From: Carboxylicivirga caseinilyticus
Lineage (GTDB): Bacteria; Bacteroidota; Bacteroidia; Bacteroidales; Marinilabiliaceae
Assembly (NCBI GenBank): GCA_025499705.1
Contig: JAFMVE010000055.1
Location: forward strand, 1 to 35,217
Direction of reading: 5' to 3'
Length of the DNA: 35,217 nt
Part shown: positions 4,730-35,100 of the stretch, piece after piece
Position numbering within the stretch: position 1 is the stretch's first letter
Layout: each line of letters opens with the position of its first letter
The notes under the pieces: generated by a model
Seen by the model: the letters and a program-made list of their open reading frames with translations, nothing else
Databases searched by the model: none
Told to the model about the DNA's origin: nothing
Translations under genes and position numbers: made by a program

Positions 4730-6250
4730 TTATCTATTTTTTAACACACTAAAGTTAAGGTATTTATATTCATCAAAAAAACCTATGAGTTGCTCAGCAA
4801 TGGCATCAACTCCTCCCACAACATCTGACTCAATATTAAGAGGTATAACTGGATCGTGAAGTGATAGCCGAAGTAAAAACCATCCTTTCTGAATCTCATC
4901 AGTACATGATACTCTTATTCCTTCGTAATTATCAGGTAAGATCTTCCAGTCATCCTTAGCATCCGCAAATTTACCCAGATCACGGATTACTTTTTCACCA
5001 TATTCTTTAAAATCTTCGGTTTCAATTTTTATCCTGAACTCTTTACTCTCAGCCGGCTTTGGCAACGCTTCAATCAAGGTAGACAGCTGTTTCCCATCCT
5101 TCTTCAAACGTGCCATTTTAATCAGAATTTTGGTAACAAGATAGGCTCCATCATCCAAAAAATAATTCTCTTTTAAAGCTGCATGTCCCGATGTTTCAAT
5201 GGCCAGCCAGGATTCTTTACCTGTTTCATTTAAACGAACAGACTCATTGATAACATTTTTATACCCTCTTTTAAATCTGTGATGCTTGGCTTTTAAATAA
5301 TCATTAATAAACCACGACAAACCATCTGACGTGATGGAATCAGTAACGACTACTGAACCCGGATGTTCTTCATTAATAATCGCGGCTGAAAGGGCAACAA
5401 GTTCATTCCTGTTTACGGGATTTGCATTATTATCCACAATGGCAGCTCTGTCAACATCTGTATCAAAAATAATTCCCAGATCAGCTCCAGTCTCTTTTAC
5501 AGCTTTACAAATTGATTGCATGGCCTGCTCATCTTCGGGATTAGGAATATGATTTGGAAAATTACCATCAGGTTCCAGAAACTGGCTGCCATTAATATCG
5601 GCACCCAACTCTTTCAACACTTTATGAGCATAAAATCCACCGGCCCCATTACCCGCATCCAGTACAATTTTAAAGCCTGAAAGAGGTTGGTTGTAATTTT
5701 GATTATCGTTTACCTCTTTTTTTATTTTTTCTGCAAGTATTTTAGAATAAACATCAATAAAATTAATGTCCTCTATAATTCCAACAGAATTATCTGAAAG
5801 ATATGTTTCAGAAGCGGCAATATCCAGAATCTCGGAAATATCAGCTTTTTCGAGGCCTCCTCTAGAAGTAAAAAACTTCAATCCATTGCGATTAAAAGGA
5901 AGATGACTTGCGGTTAACATCACACCTCCATCGGCCAGATATGGTTCTGTAACGGTTGTCATAAACATTGCAGGTGTTGATGCCAGATCACAATCCATAA
6001 CATCAGCTCCCTGATCCGAAAGTCCCTTAATAAATGATGCTTTCAGTGCTGGACCCGAAAGACGAGAATCCATTCCCACAGCAACCTTTAACCTTTTACC
6101 ATCATTTTGCTTTTTAAGCCAGGTAAAAAAAGCCTTTGCTAACTGATAAACAACCTTTTCATCCAGGTTTACATTCTCTCCTGGCACACCTTCCAGTGCA
6201 ACTCCTCTGATATCGGAACCATTCTGTAAACTCTTCCAGTTAAATTCCAT
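4730..6250 (-). CDS. Phosphomannomutase/phosphoglucomutase-family enzyme
   Basis: Alpha-D-phosphohexomutase of 506 residues, which would interconvert sugar 1- and 6-phosphates through a phosphoserine. Visible elements are the N-terminal VAVGMDSRLSGP, the active-site loop TASHLPFNRNGLKFF with Ser115 as phospho-acceptor, the metal loop DTDVDRA, and the sugar loop ETSGHAALKE. The usual loop reads TASHNP and GExSGH, so Leu replaces Asn and Thr-Ser replaces the common pair. The long 500-residue form with TASHLP is, from memory, frequent in Bacteroidota. Seven bases separate it from the upstream SIS isomerase gene and two from the downstream hydrolase, so all three form one operon. Substrate (mannose, glucose or other) is not resolved. 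Confidence 0.9.
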   Translation of the reverse strand: MEFNWKSLQNGSDIRGVALEGVPGENVNLDEKVVYQLAKAFFTWLKKQNDGKRLKVAVGMDSRLSGPALKASFIKGLSDQGADVMDCDLASTPAMFMTTVTEPYLADGGVMLTASHLPFNRNGLKFFTSRGGLEKADISEILDIAASETYLSDNSVGIIEDINFIDVYSKILAEKIKKEVNDNQNYNQPLSGFKIVLDAGNGAGGFYAHKVLKELGADINGSQFLEPDGNFPNHIPNPEDEQAMQSICKAVKETGADLGIIFDTDVDRAAIVDNNANPVNRNELVALSAAIINEEHPGSVVVTDSITSDGLSWFINDYLKAKHHRFKRGYKNVINESVRLNETGKESWLAIETSGHAALKENYFLDDGAYLVTKILIKMARLKKDGKQLSTLIEALPKPAESKEFRIKIETEDFKEYGEKVIRDLGKFADAKDDWKILPDNYEGIRVSCTDEIQKGWFLLRLSLHDPVIPLNIESDVVGGVDAIAEQLIGFFDEYKYLNFSVLKNR

Positions 6251-29590: not shown

Positions 29591-31657
29591 ATGCCCAAAA
29601 GACTTTTAACCATAATATTGCTATGTTTGCTCATAATCGGCCAAACAGTTACTGCAGATAACGAGAATAGCATTGCTCGCGAAATTAAAGTCGGAGTTTA
29701 CCATAATCCACCTCTCATTTTTTCTGATTCAACAGGCAAGGCAAAGGGTATTTTTATTGATATACTGGAACATATTGCCATCGAAAAAAACTGGAAACTT
29801 AATTACTTCAATTACACTTTAGAAGAAGCACTCATTGCAACGCAAAATAACCTGATAGATATTGCGCCCTGCATCGCCTATTCAAAAGAAAGAGAAAAAA
29901 CAATACGATATTCCAAAGATCCGATCTTTATTAATTGGGGAGTTATATACACTGGTCTGGAAAATACAATCCGTGATATTTCAGAAATGGAAAATGTAAA
30001 ACTGGGGATTGAGAAAGGAGATATACATGGGGCTGCTTTTATCAAACTTCTAAAGGACTTTAACATTCATACTGAAATATTTAATTATGCCGATCAGAAG
30101 CAATTAGTTGAAGCCATAAAAAAAGAAGAAGTTGAAGCTATTGCCATCAATAAAGTGTTTGGTTTCAATGTCAATTTAAAAAAAGAATTAAGAGAAACAC
30201 CCATACTTTTCAATCCTGTTCATCTCAATTTTGCTACCAGTCGTGAATCTATTGAGTTGATAAATGAACTTGATACTGAGATAAGTAGATTCCTCACTCA
30301 ATCACCTGAAGTTTATCATTCCATTATCGATCGATGGATGTTAGCTCCAATTGAAAAAGAGAAACCACTTTGGCTAAAAGTATTTTTATTCGTTATCGGT
30401 TCAATTATTAGTCTTCTCGTTGTTTATTTAATATTTCTAAGAGTTAGAATAACCAACAATAATAGGGCACTTAAAAAAGAGCTTAAACTCAGAGCCGCTA
30501 ACGAGAAACTTATAGCCCAATTAGTTAATGAGAAGGAATTAATATTAAACAGCATTGATGAACAGGTTGTTTTTGTTGATCCAGCATACCGGGTTCTTTG
30601 GGCAAACAAAGCATACAAAGAAAAAACAATCAAAACATTTGATAATCAGCTAGGACAAAAATGTTTTGAAATAGTATATGGTAATAAGAAACCTTGTGAA
30701 TTCTGTCAGATTGAAAAAAGCAAAATATCCAATAACACAGAGGTTTTAGAATATTTTGATGAGCAAAACCAAAAATATTACCGTACTAAAACCAGCCCAG
30801 TGTATGATGGTGGAACCTCACCAATAGGTTTTGTAAAGGTTATAAGCGATTTTACAGATAAGAAAAAAAATGAAGAAGAATTGATTGCAGCCAAGGAGAA
30901 AGCTGAAGAATCGGACTTTATGAAATCGACCTTTTTAGCCAATATGTCACATGAAATTCGAACTCCCATGAATGCCATTATTGGGTTCTCAGAGCTTTTA
31001 GAAGATAATGATCTGACCAATGCTCAAAAAAACAACTATCTGAATATTATTCAATCCAATGGTCAGCATCTGCTGCAACTGATTTCTGACATACTGATAT
31101 TTTCTCAATTGGAAAGCGGACACATCGAACTCCAATATTCCAGTTTTAACATTACAGAAGTATTGAAGGAAATCTATCAACAATTTAAAAGTGAAAAAGA
31201 GAAACTCGATAAACCTGATCTTGAGATTCTTTTATCCATTGATAAAATTGAAAGTAACACAAGCCTGCATTCCGATAATATCAGACTTAAACAAATTATC
31301 TTTAACCTGATGACCAATGCTCTTAAATTCACCGAGAAAGGCAGTATTACATTAGGAGCCTATATTAATGAGAACATGCTTGTGATTTACGTTAAAGACA
31401 CAGGTATTGGTATCCCGAAAGATCAACAAGCAAAAATCTTTCATCGATTCCTGCAGGTAGAGAATCCGCATCTTAAGAAAGCAGAAGGAACCGGATTAGG
31501 TTTAACCATTTCCAGTGATCTGATAGATTTATTAGGAGGTAAAATTGAAGTAAAATCAAAAGTAGATGTTGGCAGTACATTTACAATTTACCACCCTATT
31601 TACCGGGAAGAATCCTCTAACAGTATAAAGCAAAAACAAAAAACAGGGATTCAATAA
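29591..31657 (+). CDS. Sensor histidine kinase with SBP_bac_3 sensor and PAS domain
   Basis: Kinase of 688 residues resembling the sensor part of BvgS/EvgS-type proteins. A signal peptide (about 1-22) is followed by one extracytoplasmic solute-binding domain of the SBP_bac_3 type (about 33-250: VGVYHNPPLIFSDSTGKAKG, NLIDIAPCIAYSKERE), a TM helix (about 263-287), a coiled linker and a PAS domain (about 310-430) that holds CFEIVYGNKKPCEFC, a Cys pattern found in some redox or metal PAS domains. The HisKA box MSHEIRTPMNAIIGFSELL has His454, and HATPase motifs are complete: NLMTNALKFT, DTGIGIPKD, GTGLGLTIS. No receiver domain and no neighbouring regulator are present, so the partner is encoded elsewhere. 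Confidence 0.93.
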   Translation: MPKRLLTIILLCLLIIGQTVTADNENSIAREIKVGVYHNPPLIFSDSTGKAKGIFIDILEHIAIEKNWKLNYFNYTLEEALIATQNNLIDIAPCIAYSKEREKTIRYSKDPIFINWGVIYTGLENTIRDISEMENVKLGIEKGDIHGAAFIKLLKDFNIHTEIFNYADQKQLVEAIKKEEVEAIAINKVFGFNVNLKKELRETPILFNPVHLNFATSRESIELINELDTEISRFLTQSPEVYHSIIDRWMLAPIEKEKPLWLKVFLFVIGSIISLLVVYLIFLRVRITNNNRALKKELKLRAANEKLIAQLVNEKELILNSIDEQVVFVDPAYRVLWANKAYKEKTIKTFDNQLGQKCFEIVYGNKKPCEFCQIEKSKISNNTEVLEYFDEQNQKYYRTKTSPVYDGGTSPIGFVKVISDFTDKKKNEEELIAAKEKAEESDFMKSTFLANMSHEIRTPMNAIIGFSELLEDNDLTNAQKNNYLNIIQSNGQHLLQLISDILIFSQLESGHIELQYSSFNITEVLKEIYQQFKSEKEKLDKPDLEILLSIDKIESNTSLHSDNIRLKQIIFNLMTNALKFTEKGSITLGAYINENMLVIYVKDTGIGIPKDQQAKIFHRFLQVENPHLKKAEGTGLGLTISSDLIDLLGGKIEVKSKVDVGSTFTIYHPIYREESSNSIKQKQKTGIQ

Positions 31658-31740
31658 TATTTACTCAGCATTTACAAACTATTAGTAAAACATAAGCAAA
31701 ACTTACTATTTAATTTTTTTAGTATTTTCTTACTCTCGAT

Positions 31741-31770
31741 TTGGTAATCTAAATTTATTCTCTACATTTG
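31741..31770 (+). promoter_or_regulatory. Promoter of the aromatic operon
   Basis: TTG at 31741-31743 and TACATTTG at 31763-31770 (exact TAnnTTTG) with a 19-base spacer. Transcription should start near 31776, about 18 bases before the leader peptide ATG. Confidence 0.7.
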
Positions 31771-31793
31771 TAGCACGAAAAAAACAGAGAACA

Positions 31794-31865
31794 ATGGCTC
31801 ACAACTTTTTTTATAGCTTTTATTATTTCTTTTTTAGCAGACTAAAAGAGGTGGGCACGCTATAA
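31794..31865 (+). CDS. Phe/Tyr-rich attenuator leader peptide
   Basis: Short reading frame of 23 codons with ATG at 31794 and TAA at 31863-31865. The peptide begins MAHN, then FFYSFYYFFF (six Phe and three Tyr in ten codons), then SRLKEVGTL. It is too short and biased to be an ordinary gene. It sits between a good promoter and a strong terminator in front of phenylalanine/tyrosine biosynthesis genes. The composition matches the logic of the E. coli pheL leader: slow decoding of Phe or Tyr codons stalls the ribosome and prevents termination. The G-rich codons near its end (GAG GTG GG) are the antiterminator strand. The sequence, frame and pairing are all directly readable; the regulatory behaviour is inferred. 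Confidence 0.9.
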   Translation: MAHNFFYSFYYFFFSRLKEVGTL

Positions 31866-31902
31866 GACATTCAGAATAGTAAAATATATAGAAACCCGCC
31901 TC
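31848..31902 (+). promoter_or_regulatory. Antiterminator pairing of the Phe/Tyr attenuator
   Basis: GAGGTGGG (31848-31855) can pair with CCCGCCTC (31895-31902) over eight base pairs with one G-U. This uses most of the 5' arm of the terminator, so the two structures exclude each other. A ribosome stalled on the Phe/Tyr codons (31806-31835) leaves 31848-31855 free, while one at the stop codon covers it. Confidence 0.75.
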
Positions 31903-31918
31903 GTAAGGCGGGTTTTTT
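31892..31918 (+). terminator. Attenuator terminator before prephenate dehydratase
   Basis: AAACCCGCC (31892-31900) pairs perfectly with GGCGGGTTT (31907-31915) around TCGTAA, followed by a T-run to 31918. It lies between the leader peptide and the first structural gene, only 20 bases before its ATG. Confidence 0.92.
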
Positions 31919-31938
31919 CATATACTGACTTAAACACA

Positions 31939-32838
31939 ATGAAACAAAAGAAAAAAATAGCAATACAGGGATGGCCGGGAGCAAATCACGAGATTGCCGC
32001 AAAAGCGTACTTCGAGGATGATAAATTAGAAGTAATACCGTGCCTTACCTTTCCGGACTTGTTTCAGACATTAAAAGAAGATAGGTCGATTTATGGAATT
32101 ATTGCTATTGAAAATACATTGGTAGGTAGTTTATTACCTAACTACACCATGCTTAAAGACAGTGACCTGCTTATTATTGGTGAGTACAAATTGCGTATCA
32201 AGCACCAGTTAATGGCATTACCCGGGCAAAGTATTGAAGATATCCGCGAGGTACATTCTCACCCTATGGCATTAGCGCAGTGTGAGGAATTCTTTAAAGC
32301 ATACCCTCATATTAAATTAATCGAATCGGAAGATACAGCCTTAAGTGCCAAGCGTATTTCGGAAGAAAAAATAACAGGCATTGCTGCCATAGCTTCTGAA
32401 CTGGCGGCAAGCATGTATAAACTAAATATAATTGCCAGTGGTATTGAAACCAATAAACGCAATTACACCCGCTTTTTAGTTATTACCGACAGAGCATTGA
32501 CTGAAACGGATGAACTTTTGGCACAAAACAGAATCAATAAAGCATCATTGGTTTTTTCATTGCCTCACGACGAAGGAAGCCTGTCGAAAGTTTTGACTGT
32601 TCTGAGTTTTTATAACATCAACTTAACCAAAATACAATCCTTACCTATCGTAGGACAAGAATGGGAATATTTATTTTATGTTGATGTTACATTCAATGAT
32701 TACAAACGCTATTTACAATCGTTGGATGCTATACGACCTTTGTGCAAAAAACTAAAGATTCTGGGCGAATACGAAAAAGGTAAACAATCATACCCTATTC
32801 AAAACGGTAATACAGTAGAAACAGCCAACCATGAATAA
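31939..32838 (+). CDS. pheA: Prephenate dehydratase
   Basis: Monofunctional prephenate dehydratase of 299 residues, converting prephenate to phenylpyruvate in phenylalanine synthesis. The catalytic domain (about 5-185) shows IAIQGWPGANHEIAAKAYF, IIAIENTLVGSLLPNY and the TRF motif at 177-179 (NYTRFLVIT). A C-terminal ACT domain (about 203-280) has EGSLSKVLTVLSFYNINLT. The Phe-binding ESRP motif found in enteric enzymes is replaced by QSLP, so feedback inhibition may be altered; this would shift weight onto the leader attenuator. There is no fused chorismate mutase, which is instead on the third gene. The next gene starts eight bases inside this one. Start chosen at the ATG after the attenuator. 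Confidence 0.95.
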   Translation: MKQKKKIAIQGWPGANHEIAAKAYFEDDKLEVIPCLTFPDLFQTLKEDRSIYGIIAIENTLVGSLLPNYTMLKDSDLLIIGEYKLRIKHQLMALPGQSIEDIREVHSHPMALAQCEEFFKAYPHIKLIESEDTALSAKRISEEKITGIAAIASELAASMYKLNIIASGIETNKRNYTRFLVITDRALTETDELLAQNRINKASLVFSLPHDEGSLSKVLTVLSFYNINLTKIQSLPIVGQEWEYLFYVDVTFNDYKRYLQSLDAIRPLCKKLKILGEYEKGKQSYPIQNGNTVETANHE

Positions 32839-34000
32839 TATACAACCAGCTGATAGAATCAATCAGGTAGAAGAATACTACTTCTCTATCAAACTAAAAG
32901 AGCTTGATAAATTAAGAAAAGAAGGCAAGCCAATTATTAACCTGGGAATCGGTAACCCTGATATGGCTCCTGCTCCTTCAGTTATTGAAGAGATTTCGGA
33001 ACAAAGCAAAGTCCCTACCAATCATGGCTATCAAAGTTATGTTGGCATACCTGAACTGCGGGAAGCATTCAGTACTTGGTATGAGAGATATTACGGTGTA
33101 AAAGTTGACCCAGGAACAGAAGTTTTGCCATTGATGGGATCTAAAGAAGGCATTATGCACATTACACTTGCTTTCCTTAATCCGGGCGATGGAGTTTTGG
33201 TTCCTAATCCGGGATATCCAACCTATGCTTCGGCCAGTAAAATTGCCCAGGCAACTTTGATTCCTTATGATCTGGATGAAAACAAAGGCTGGTTGCCCAA
33301 CCTGGATGAGCTTGAAAAACTGGATTTAAGCAATGTTAAGCTGATGTGGATTAACTATCCGAATATGCCTACCGGAGCCAATGCCAATACTGACTTTTTC
33401 AAGAAAGTAATTGCCTTTGGAAAGAAGCATAACATTGTTATCTGTAATGATAACCCATACAGCTTTATCCTGAATGATTCACCCCAAAGTATATTATCCA
33501 TTGAAGGTGCCAATGACATTGCCATTGAGCTTAACTCACTGAGTAAATCTCATAACATGGCCGGATGGCGTGTAGGAGCTGTATTCTCTAATCCAACTTT
33601 CATTCAATATATTTTAAGAGTGAAAAGTAATATGGATTCAGGAATGTTTAAACCTCTTCAGCTGGCAGCTGTTAAAGCTTTGGAACTTGATAGCAACTGG
33701 TACCAAAGTGTTAATCAAGAGTATAAACAACGAAGAGTACTGGTTCAGGAAATAATGGATATTCTGGAATGCACCTACGATACTAATCAAACCGGAATGT
33801 TTGTTTGGGCCCGCATTCCTGAGAAATATAAAGATAGTGGGGAACTATCGGATAAGATCCTTTACGGAGTAGATGTATTTATAACTCCGGGTCTTATATT
33901 TGGTGAGATAGGTAACCGATACATTCGAATCAGCCTTTGCACCAAGCAAGAAGTATTAAAAGAAGCAAAACAAAGAATAGAAAAAATCATAAAACAATAA
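32831..34000 (+). CDS. PLP-dependent aromatic/prephenate aminotransferase
   Basis: Fold-type I (class I/II) aminotransferase of 389 residues. PLP residues are readable: Lys239 in NSLSKSHNMAGWRVG (Schiff base), the Asp207 and Tyr210 pair in CNDNPY, NYPNMPTGA, and a C-terminal arginine in NRYIRISLC. The sequence resembles the LL-diaminopimelate/alanine/aspartate aminotransferase group, but its position between prephenate dehydratase and DAHP synthase-chorismate mutase points to transamination of phenylpyruvate, hydroxyphenylpyruvate or prephenate. The specificity is an inference from context. It overlaps pheA by eight bases and is two bases from the next ATG, so all three genes share one attenuated transcript. 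Confidence 0.9.
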   Translation: MNNIQPADRINQVEEYYFSIKLKELDKLRKEGKPIINLGIGNPDMAPAPSVIEEISEQSKVPTNHGYQSYVGIPELREAFSTWYERYYGVKVDPGTEVLPLMGSKEGIMHITLAFLNPGDGVLVPNPGYPTYASASKIAQATLIPYDLDENKGWLPNLDELEKLDLSNVKLMWINYPNMPTGANANTDFFKKVIAFGKKHNIVICNDNPYSFILNDSPQSILSIEGANDIAIELNSLSKSHNMAGWRVGAVFSNPTFIQYILRVKSNMDSGMFKPLQLAAVKALELDSNWYQSVNQEYKQRRVLVQEIMDILECTYDTNQTGMFVWARIPEKYKDSGELSDKILYGVDVFITPGLIFGEIGNRYIRISLCTKQEVLKEAKQRIEKIIKQ

Positions 34001-34002
34001 CC

Positions 34003-35100
34003 ATGGAAAATAAACTGGATTTACTACCATTGGAATTACCAGGTGTTAAACTGGAGCGTCCTATTTTAATTGCCGGACCATGTAGTGCCGAAACAGAAGA
34101 TCAAGTGCTTACCACAGCCAAACAATTAGCTGCTCAGGGAGTAAAAATATTCCGCGCAGGAATATGGAAACCACGTACTCGTCCGGGAGCTTTTGAAGGT
34201 GTTGGAACCGTTGGTTTGCCCTGGTTGAAGAAAGTGAAAGAAGAAACAGGTATGTTTGTTAGTATTGAGGTTGCTACAGCTCACCATGTTTACGAAGCTT
34301 TAAAGTTTGGTGTAGATATGCTTTGGGTAGGTGCCCGTACAACAGCAAACCCTTTTGCTGTGCAGGAAGTAGCAGATGCATTAGCAGGTGTGGATATTCC
34401 GGTACTGGTAAAAAATCCTGTGAATCCTGATTTGGAATTATGGATTGGAGCATTGGAACGTATCAATCAGGCAGGAATTAAGCGTTTGGGTGCTATTCAC
34501 CGTGGATTCAGCACATACGATAAAACAAAATACCGTAACAACCCTGAGTGGCAGATTCCAATTGAGTTACGTCGTCGTATTCCTGAATTACCTATTATTA
34601 CTGACCCCAGCCACATATCTGGTAAAAGTGGTATGATTGCTGAAGTATCACAGGAAGCAATGGACCTTAACTTCGACGGTTTGATCATCGAATCGCATAT
34701 GTGTCCTGAAAAAGCCTGGAGTGATGCCAGCCAGCAGGTAACACCTGATCATCTGAAACAAATCATGACTGATCTGGTAGTGCGTCAATCTGCTATTGGT
34801 GAAAAGCCACGTGTAACGCTGGATGAATTACGTAAGAAAATAGACTTGCTTGACCAACAATTATTGGAAACATTAAGCTCAAGAATGAAGATTTCTGAGG
34901 CGATTGGTAAATACAAATACGATAACAATATTACGATTCTTCAAACTCGTCGTTACGATGAGATTATGAATAAACGTCGTGATCAGGCTACAGATAATAA
35001 CCTGAATCCTGAATTTGTTGTGAAAGTATTTGAACATATTCACGAAGAGTCAATCAATCGTCAGAATATTATTATGAATAAAGAATTGGCGAAAAAATAA
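34003..35100 (+). CDS. Bifunctional DAHP synthase - chorismate mutase
   Basis: Fusion protein of about 365 residues; the ATG at 34003, two bases after the aminotransferase stop, is preferred over an ATG at 33937 that would add a basic tail overlapping that gene. The N-terminal domain (about 1-265) is a type I-beta 3-deoxy-7-phosphoheptulonate synthase: ILIAGPCSAETEDQV, KIFRAGIWKPRTRP, GADM-like VDMLWVGARTTAN, ITDPSHISGK and IIESHMCPEKAWSD, including metal-binding Cys, His and Glu positions. The C-terminal domain (about 275-350) is AroQ-type chorismate mutase: LDELRKKIDLLDQQLLETLSSRM and AIGKYK. The order DAHPS then CM is found in Bacteroidota such as Porphyromonas. Chorismate mutase binding may let prephenate control the first step. 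Confidence 0.95.
   Translation: MENKLDLLPLELPGVKLERPILIAGPCSAETEDQVLTTAKQLAAQGVKIFRAGIWKPRTRPGAFEGVGTVGLPWLKKVKEETGMFVSIEVATAHHVYEALKFGVDMLWVGARTTANPFAVQEVADALAGVDIPVLVKNPVNPDLELWIGALERINQAGIKRLGAIHRGFSTYDKTKYRNNPEWQIPIELRRRIPELPIITDPSHISGKSGMIAEVSQEAMDLNFDGLIIESHMCPEKAWSDASQQVTPDHLKQIMTDLVVRQSAIGEKPRVTLDELRKKIDLLDQQLLETLSSRMKISEAIGKYKYDNNITILQTRRYDEIMNKRRDQATDNNLNPEFVVKVFEHIHEESINRQNIIMNKELAKK

Follow-up and report, generated by a model that had tools for sequence, protein, structure and literature searches.

Here we describe a short control region ahead of pheA in Carboxylicivirga caseinilyticus that is very probably a ribosome-mediated leader-peptide transcription attenuator, one that would sense charged tRNA-Phe together with charged tRNA-Tyr and control an operon of pheA, an aminotransferase gene and a gene for DAHP synthase/chorismate mutase. 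In the window, by which we mean the whole stretch of DNA that was analysed (35,217 nucleotides), and in related sequences, the region displays a leader frame under coding constraint, a terminator, an alternative pairing with compensatory changes, a fitting spacing between these parts, and an agreement between leader codons and operon content. The mechanism itself is of a kind already known, that of classical ribosome-mediated attenuation, and the switch found here is a well-supported member of it; what is new is how widely it occurs in the class, its combination of Phe and Tyr in one run, and the rewriting of the codons in operons that have been split. Such a switch would be a concrete and testable control mechanism for the way in which a major phylum makes its aromatic amino acids, would serve as a natural experiment in which leader codons are linked to operon products, and would offer an approach to the question of transcription-translation coupling in Bacteroidota. 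The features of the locus are as follows.

31740..31770, forward strand: promoter-like site of the Bacteroidota type, called from sequence, with TTTG at 31740-31743, a 19-nt spacer and TACATTTG at 31763-31770
31794..31865, forward strand: leader ORF of 23 codons, from ATG to TAA, MAHNFFYSFYYFFFSRLKEVGTL
31799..31804, forward strand: strand 1, GCTCAC, with a possible pairing partner, GTGGGC, at 31851-31856
31806..31835, forward strand: regulatory codons FFYSFYYFFF, leader codons 5-14, nine of the ten being Phe or Tyr
31848..31855, forward strand: strand 2, the antiterminator strand GAGGTGGG, within the leader frame, with its partner at 31896-31903
31892..31918, forward strand: intrinsic terminator (3:4) with U-tract, AAACCCGCCT-CGTA-AGGCGGGTTT and a T-run
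31896..31903, forward strand: strand 3, CCCGCCTC, partner of strand 2, made up of the terminator 5' arm (31896-31901) and two loop bases
31939..32838, forward strand: pheA, prephenate dehydratase, first gene of the operon (Pfam PDT PF00800, E 2e-56)
32831..34000, forward strand: class I/II aminotransferase gene (Pfam PF00155, E 2.8e-58), in a gene order shared with relatives
33937..35100, forward strand: DAHP synthase/chorismate mutase gene (Pfam PF00793 and PF01817), listed from a TTG, its real start probably lying further in

When the sequence and its list of open reading frames were read again, the coordinates that a sequence-only reading had given for the leader, the terminator and the rival strand proved correct to the base. 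The 3' end of the terminator is 20 bases from the pheA start at 31939, and on the other side an upstream kinase-like ORF stops at 31657. Among named PheA proteins the nearest comes from Carboxylicivirga linearis (93% identity), and in a same-genus genome (G002, locus L216) the next gene of the operon carries a PDH_N (prephenate dehydrogenase) domain by Pfam. The promoter had been described as TTG-19-TAnnTTTG, and TTTG-N19-TACATTTG is indeed present at 31740-31770; the site is assigned by a consensus, shared with that reading, which we take to be that of Bacteroidota. From this motif, transcription would start a few bases past 31770, on the 5' side of the leader ATG. A similar signal recurs among the relatives described below: 86 of 127 loci carry TANNTTTG on the 5' side of the Phe/Tyr run, where mononucleotide shuffles lead one to expect 8.5, and in 62 of those 86 TTG or TTTG stands 17-21 nt ahead of it.

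In the mechanism that we propose, a shortage of either Phe or Tyr would slow the ribosome trailing RNA polymerase on the Phe/Tyr run, and its leading edge would halt just before 31848, leaving strand 2 exposed; strand 2 would then bind strand 3, no terminator would form, and the operon would be transcribed. When Phe and Tyr are both ample, the ribosome would instead be found at the stop codon and would cover strand 2, so that the 3:4 terminator forms and transcription stops near 31918. In the organism's own family, a leader left untranslated would also favor termination through pairing of strands 1 and 2. The stalling of the ribosome, its coupling to the polymerase, tRNA as the signal and the act of termination are steps that we infer from the anatomy of the region and from established knowledge of attenuators. 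Folding of 31848-31905, the RNA that a ribosome on the last Phe codon would leave free while strand 4 is absent, gave the 2:3 antiterminator at -17.0 kcal/mol; once strand 4 was added, the terminator was preferred at -22.0 kcal/mol. Since the antiterminator comes first and the terminator wins when strand 4 is available, the switch would be kinetic, like classical attenuators. The unconstrained fold of the whole leader contained a shortened terminator hairpin and neither the 1:2 nor the 2:3 pairing. If the mechanism operates as proposed, then in leaders at least the ribosomes of Bacteroidota keep close enough behind RNA polymerase to govern whether it terminates. Among the matches listed in the literature search (titles and abstract openings), nothing settles the question of such coupling for Bacteroidota; flavobacteria have been reported to be without Shine-Dalgarno sequences (PMC9723704).

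Homologues of pheA came from relatives, a named collection and a spread of the phylum. For the last, 392 genomes were searched, 337 of them had pheA, and 94 of these, picked from the places listed, were examined. After identical upstream regions had been merged and loci with fewer than 200 nt ahead of pheA excluded, 153 loci were kept, and a leader was called wherever a short ORF held at least six Phe/Tyr per ten residues. By this rule 127 of the 153 loci have a leader rich in Phe and Tyr ahead of pheA. It is there in all 30 loci of the own family and all 16 of the same order, in 61 of 64 of the same class and in 5 of 25 from the phylum's other classes. Of the 18 named loci 15 have it; the remaining three are a contig of Flavobacteriales and two loci that belong to other phyla. 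By the same rule none was found in three of the 64 same-class loci and in 20 of the 25 of other classes. At a stricter threshold of at least eight Phe/Tyr per ten, 89 of the 153 upstream regions still carry such a frame. Three loci of the same class, L152, L165 and L175 (family f35), have an aminotransferase gene and tyrA behind pheA and no Phe/Tyr leader, and a DAHP synthase gene was not seen there within about 6.5 kb.

These numbers bear on the simplest alternative, in which a constitutive terminator of the upstream kinase-like gene happens to lie beside a T-rich ORF that arose by chance. In its favor, the region is rich in T and the end of the upstream ORF, at 31657, is nearby. Against it, only 4.4% of 765 dinucleotide-shuffled upstream regions reach six of ten and none reaches eight, a promoter-like site stands between the upstream ORF and the leader, and the arrangement is conserved across families and orders, so that we give the explanation practically no credence. 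A control of 180 stretches of 400 nt at hisG (30 loci, both strands, three stretches each) yielded ten that reach six, two that reach seven and none that reaches eight.

At the nine Phe/Tyr codons of 32 aligned sequences (A1), chosen from among the family members and the named loci close to them, the first position is T in 284 of the 288 cells, with gaps counted; T or A fills the second in 285 of 288, and T or C the third in 287 of 288. This pattern is that of Phe/Tyr coding and not of a mere T-rich tract; to judge by the alignment, the leader frame is under a near absolute Phe/Tyr coding constraint. The choice among synonymous codons is another matter, as a strong preference was not found when the runs (TTT 486, TTC 187, TAT 261, TAC 160) were compared with pheA itself (TTT 1019, TTC 463, TAT 730, TAC 519). 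Trp was considered as a sensed amino acid and dropped: although 40 of the 127 leaders have Trp in the run or just ahead of it, it makes up only 2.0% of residues, and its presence, judged by eye, does not track the aro genes of the operon.

Behind the run, a terminator-like hairpin is found in 126 of the 127 leader loci, two of them doubtful (L080, at -2.1 kcal/mol and probably mispicked, and L179, 210 nt away); the hairpin of the window itself has an energy of -17.2. Pairing was tested in 125 loci, with L149 (terminator not found) and L179 left out and L080 kept. The 2:3 pairing of the window spans 8 bp with one G-U, has a duplex energy of -16.7, and gives p 0.005 against 200 dinucleotide shuffles; across loci, 107 of 125 pairings are better than such shuffles at p<=0.05, 67 of them also at p<=0.01, and the other 18 fall short of p<=0.05. 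Among the loci there are 110 distinct arm-plus-loop sequences, and when the terminator arms were reassigned randomly among loci, the mean pairing energy went from -15.4 kcal/mol within loci to -10.1 (sd 0.26), but taken one by one, a locus's own arm ranks in the best 5% of unrelated arms at 74 of 125 loci, and in the best 1% at 12.

In the 107 loci, strand 2 (plus one flanking base) starts a median of 9 nt past the last Phe/Tyr codon, the middle half lying between 7 and 12, and this onset, compared with the size of a stalled-ribosome footprint, is consistent with the edge of a stalled ribosome. The leader stop codon lies 6 to 48 nt past the run, with L025 alone at 114; where the stop codon comes late, a ribosome resting on it would leave strand 2 partly uncovered. 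In L006 the reading frame at the end of the leader shifts while the RNA strand is kept, which places the constraint there on the RNA and not on the peptide.

Among the 32 relatives, 95.7% of the cells of the 2:3 pairing are paired, as against 43-61% when the strands are slid by 1-3 columns, and the corresponding figures for the 3:4 terminator are 94.1% and 31-64%. Double changes that preserve pairing occur in 15 cells of 2:3, 13 of them the same A-U/G-C exchange, and at five of the ten pairs of 3:4. Only two pairs of 2:3 changed on both sides, and many shuffles did as well on this measure and on the number of pair types (94 and 107 of 500); for 3:4 the corresponding shuffles matching the pair and pair-type counts were 4 and 151; the shuffle tests do not take out the relatedness of the loci. 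The sequence-only reading had made its case depend on whether frame and alternative pairing are conserved in relatives, and both turned out to be conserved across the class Bacteroidia, together with the spacing and with compensatory changes. Its attenuator interpretation gains support from the conservation, in that class, of frame, terminator, antiterminator and spacing.

The pairing of strands 1 and 2 is more local. In the 32 relatives 80.2% of its cells are paired (39-53% in slid versions) and double-sided changes occur at three of its six pairs, the counts of changed pairs and of pair types being not above shuffles (242 and 258 of 500). Across all loci it reaches p<=0.05 in 27 of 125, and on that count a general 1:2 hairpin is not supported, though the pairing is visible in the own family.

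A terminator and a rival pairing are common to all devices of this sort, and a riboswitch, a T-box or a protein-bound RNA could govern the terminator in the same way, with the ORF incidental. We regard this as extremely unlikely, because no Rfam family, T-box and known riboswitches included, matched the window at gathering score, because the leader is under the near absolute Phe/Tyr coding constraint described above, and because the interval between strand 2 and the terminator is short and poorly conserved.

In 126 of the 127 leader loci at least one of the genes for an aminotransferase, prephenate dehydrogenase or DAHP synthase lies behind pheA (some loci being cut short), and all 126 runs at these loci contain both Phe and Tyr. 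The reference proteins behind these assignments were named by eye, and Pfam agrees for those put to it; for the aminotransferase, DAHP synthase, aroA and aroC proteins taken from other genomes, the name is the one given by eye. Genomes in which the operon is split were picked by eye among the 67 with a pheA match, of 149 genomes of the order; G565, whose weak match sits where a contig ends, was not taken into the set, and G477 (L217), at a contig end with an aminotransferase gene still behind pheA, enters no count. This gave nine split genomes with pheA apart from DAHP synthase, and behind these nine pheA genes an aminotransferase, a prephenate dehydrogenase and a DAHP synthase gene were not found. 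A Phe-rich leader is kept at five of the nine (L101 FFTHFFFFF; L199 FRFFFFFAFFF; L203 FFFFFF; L204 FFFFFF; L202 YFDFVFGFLF), and the same run rule gave no leader at L200, L201, L205 and L206. Four of the five lone-pheA runs (L101, L199, L203, L204) have no Tyr, as against none of the 126 other leaders (Fisher's exact test, 4e-7, for five loci from four families and uncorrected for relatedness). The run of L202 has one Tyr, and outside the runs L199 has two Tyr after its run and L204 one near a possible start.

The separated DAHP-synthase operons give the other half of the comparison. Nine such loci were read, from eight of the split genomes (all except G463), and a Phe/Tyr leader precedes eight of them, always with Tyr, as in FGYYAFYYYFFY at L207 and FAYFYYYFYF at L208; at the ninth, L212, no leader was assigned. 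Of the four lone-pheA loci tested, three show a rival pairing at p<=0.01, with L202 as the exception (p 0.095); of the eight DAHP-synthase loci, seven do so at p<=0.05, the exception here being L211 (p 0.269). At L199, where the T-run is interrupted, the hairpin (-17.0 kcal/mol) and the rival duplex (-18.5) were computed without shuffles. The split aminotransferase/tyrA/DAHP-synthase operon of L211 carries, ahead of the aminotransferase gene (5569-5753, minus strand), two tandem Phe/Tyr-rich ORFs, each followed by a hairpin and a T-run (the second by eye), and the first of these ORFs has no significant rival pairing.

Leader composition, then, tends in these sequences to follow operon content, and the mixed Phe and Tyr sensing that had been read from the single locus finds support in the split operons, in which most runs ahead of a lone pheA contain no Tyr. 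Sensing of more than one amino acid is known from the ilv and thr leaders of E. coli. We think it probable that a dual-sensing Phe/Tyr attenuator is ancestral to Bacteroidia and that its codons were rewritten when operons were rearranged, lone pheA genes gaining Phe runs and separated tyrA/DAHP-synthase operons keeping Tyr (and sometimes Trp).

The same comparison weighs on a further alternative, in which the hydrophobic Phe/Tyr peptide itself arrests the ribosome as a nascent chain in response to some free metabolite, after which the same RNA switch acts. The run is dense and very hydrophobic, and such an arrest would produce a stall position and an RNA switch of identical appearance. The order of Phe and Tyr, the interruptions of the run and the end of the peptide are all variable, however, the leader end of L006 is shifted in frame with the RNA strand unchanged, and the mostly Tyr-free runs of lone pheA fit sensing by codon and tRNA; we therefore allow nascent-chain arrest a slim chance, and retain attenuation by charged tRNA.

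Leaders of this type are not confined to pheA in this genome, in which the regions upstream of hisG and trpE were inspected singly. Ahead of hisG (1348) in L218, at 1070-1258, are two tandem His-rich leaders, MANRIHHHHHLNLQVR and MNYNRHHKFHHLHTNPQG, each with a terminator-like hairpin behind it (the first found by script, the second by eye), and 13 of 14 same-genus hisG loci have two His-rich ORFs, L239 having one. Ahead of a trpE-like gene (1447) in L248, at 1288-1350, is a short ORF with a Trp-Trp pair (MNLITKNTGWWHHLYLSTRG), followed by a strong terminator-like hairpin. Bacteroid-trp RNA (RF01692) is located before trp genes and is likely an attenuator; it had no gathering match in the window and none in the organism's own genome at E<=0.001. 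Despite this, the Trp-Trp ORF and its hairpin are, from their arrangement, likely a Trp attenuator. The His and Trp-Trp leaders with their terminators were counted in favor of the attenuator reading at pheA.

Several known systems resemble the one described here. In Bacteroides thetaiotaomicron, a putative attenuator before pheA>hisHb>aroAIbeta-aroQ>tyrA is listed in a table taken from Merino's database (PMC1173090, Table 7); this is an attenuator predicted for the same kind of operon in the same phylum, and the table entry, unlike the present analysis, gives no leader peptide, codons or sensing model (PMC1173090). Long 5' UTRs of the same species hold sORFs reminiscent of leader peptides (PMC7366714). 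In Flavobacterium psychrophilum, leader-peptide attenuation ahead of amino-acid operons has been suggested on strong clues, and conserved 5' elements were reported at pheA and hisG; the pheA element recurs in other Flavobacteriaceae and has no match in Rfam (PMC9723704). These are, as here, structured 5' transcript regions ahead of amino-acid operons; the account of these elements names no Phe/Tyr codons, rival pairing or wider family, in contrast to what we find (PMC9723704). Bacteroid-trp RNA is likewise a cis-regulatory RNA of Bacteroidetes (PMC2864571). The novelty that the sequence-only reading had implied is lowered by these precedents (PMC1173090, PMC9723704). No description of a Phe/Tyr leader in Bacteroidota appeared among the matches listed (titles and abstract openings, with few subscription journals), which is weak evidence of absence.

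A further likeness is to the Phe_leader system, whose biology is that of the pheL/pheA attenuator of enteric bacteria. A permissive Rfam search of 31700-31960 (261 bases) gave Phe_leader (RF01859) as its best match, at 39.2 bits and E 2.2e-5 against a gathering score of 55. This sub-threshold match covers 31798-31921 at full model length, and both shared descent and convergence are possible. Like the enteric attenuator (RF01859), the region has a Phe-rich leader peptide, a terminator, a rival pairing and pheA downstream; unlike it, the region mixes Tyr codons into the run, has DAHP synthase in the operon, and bears a promoter-like site of the Bacteroidota type.
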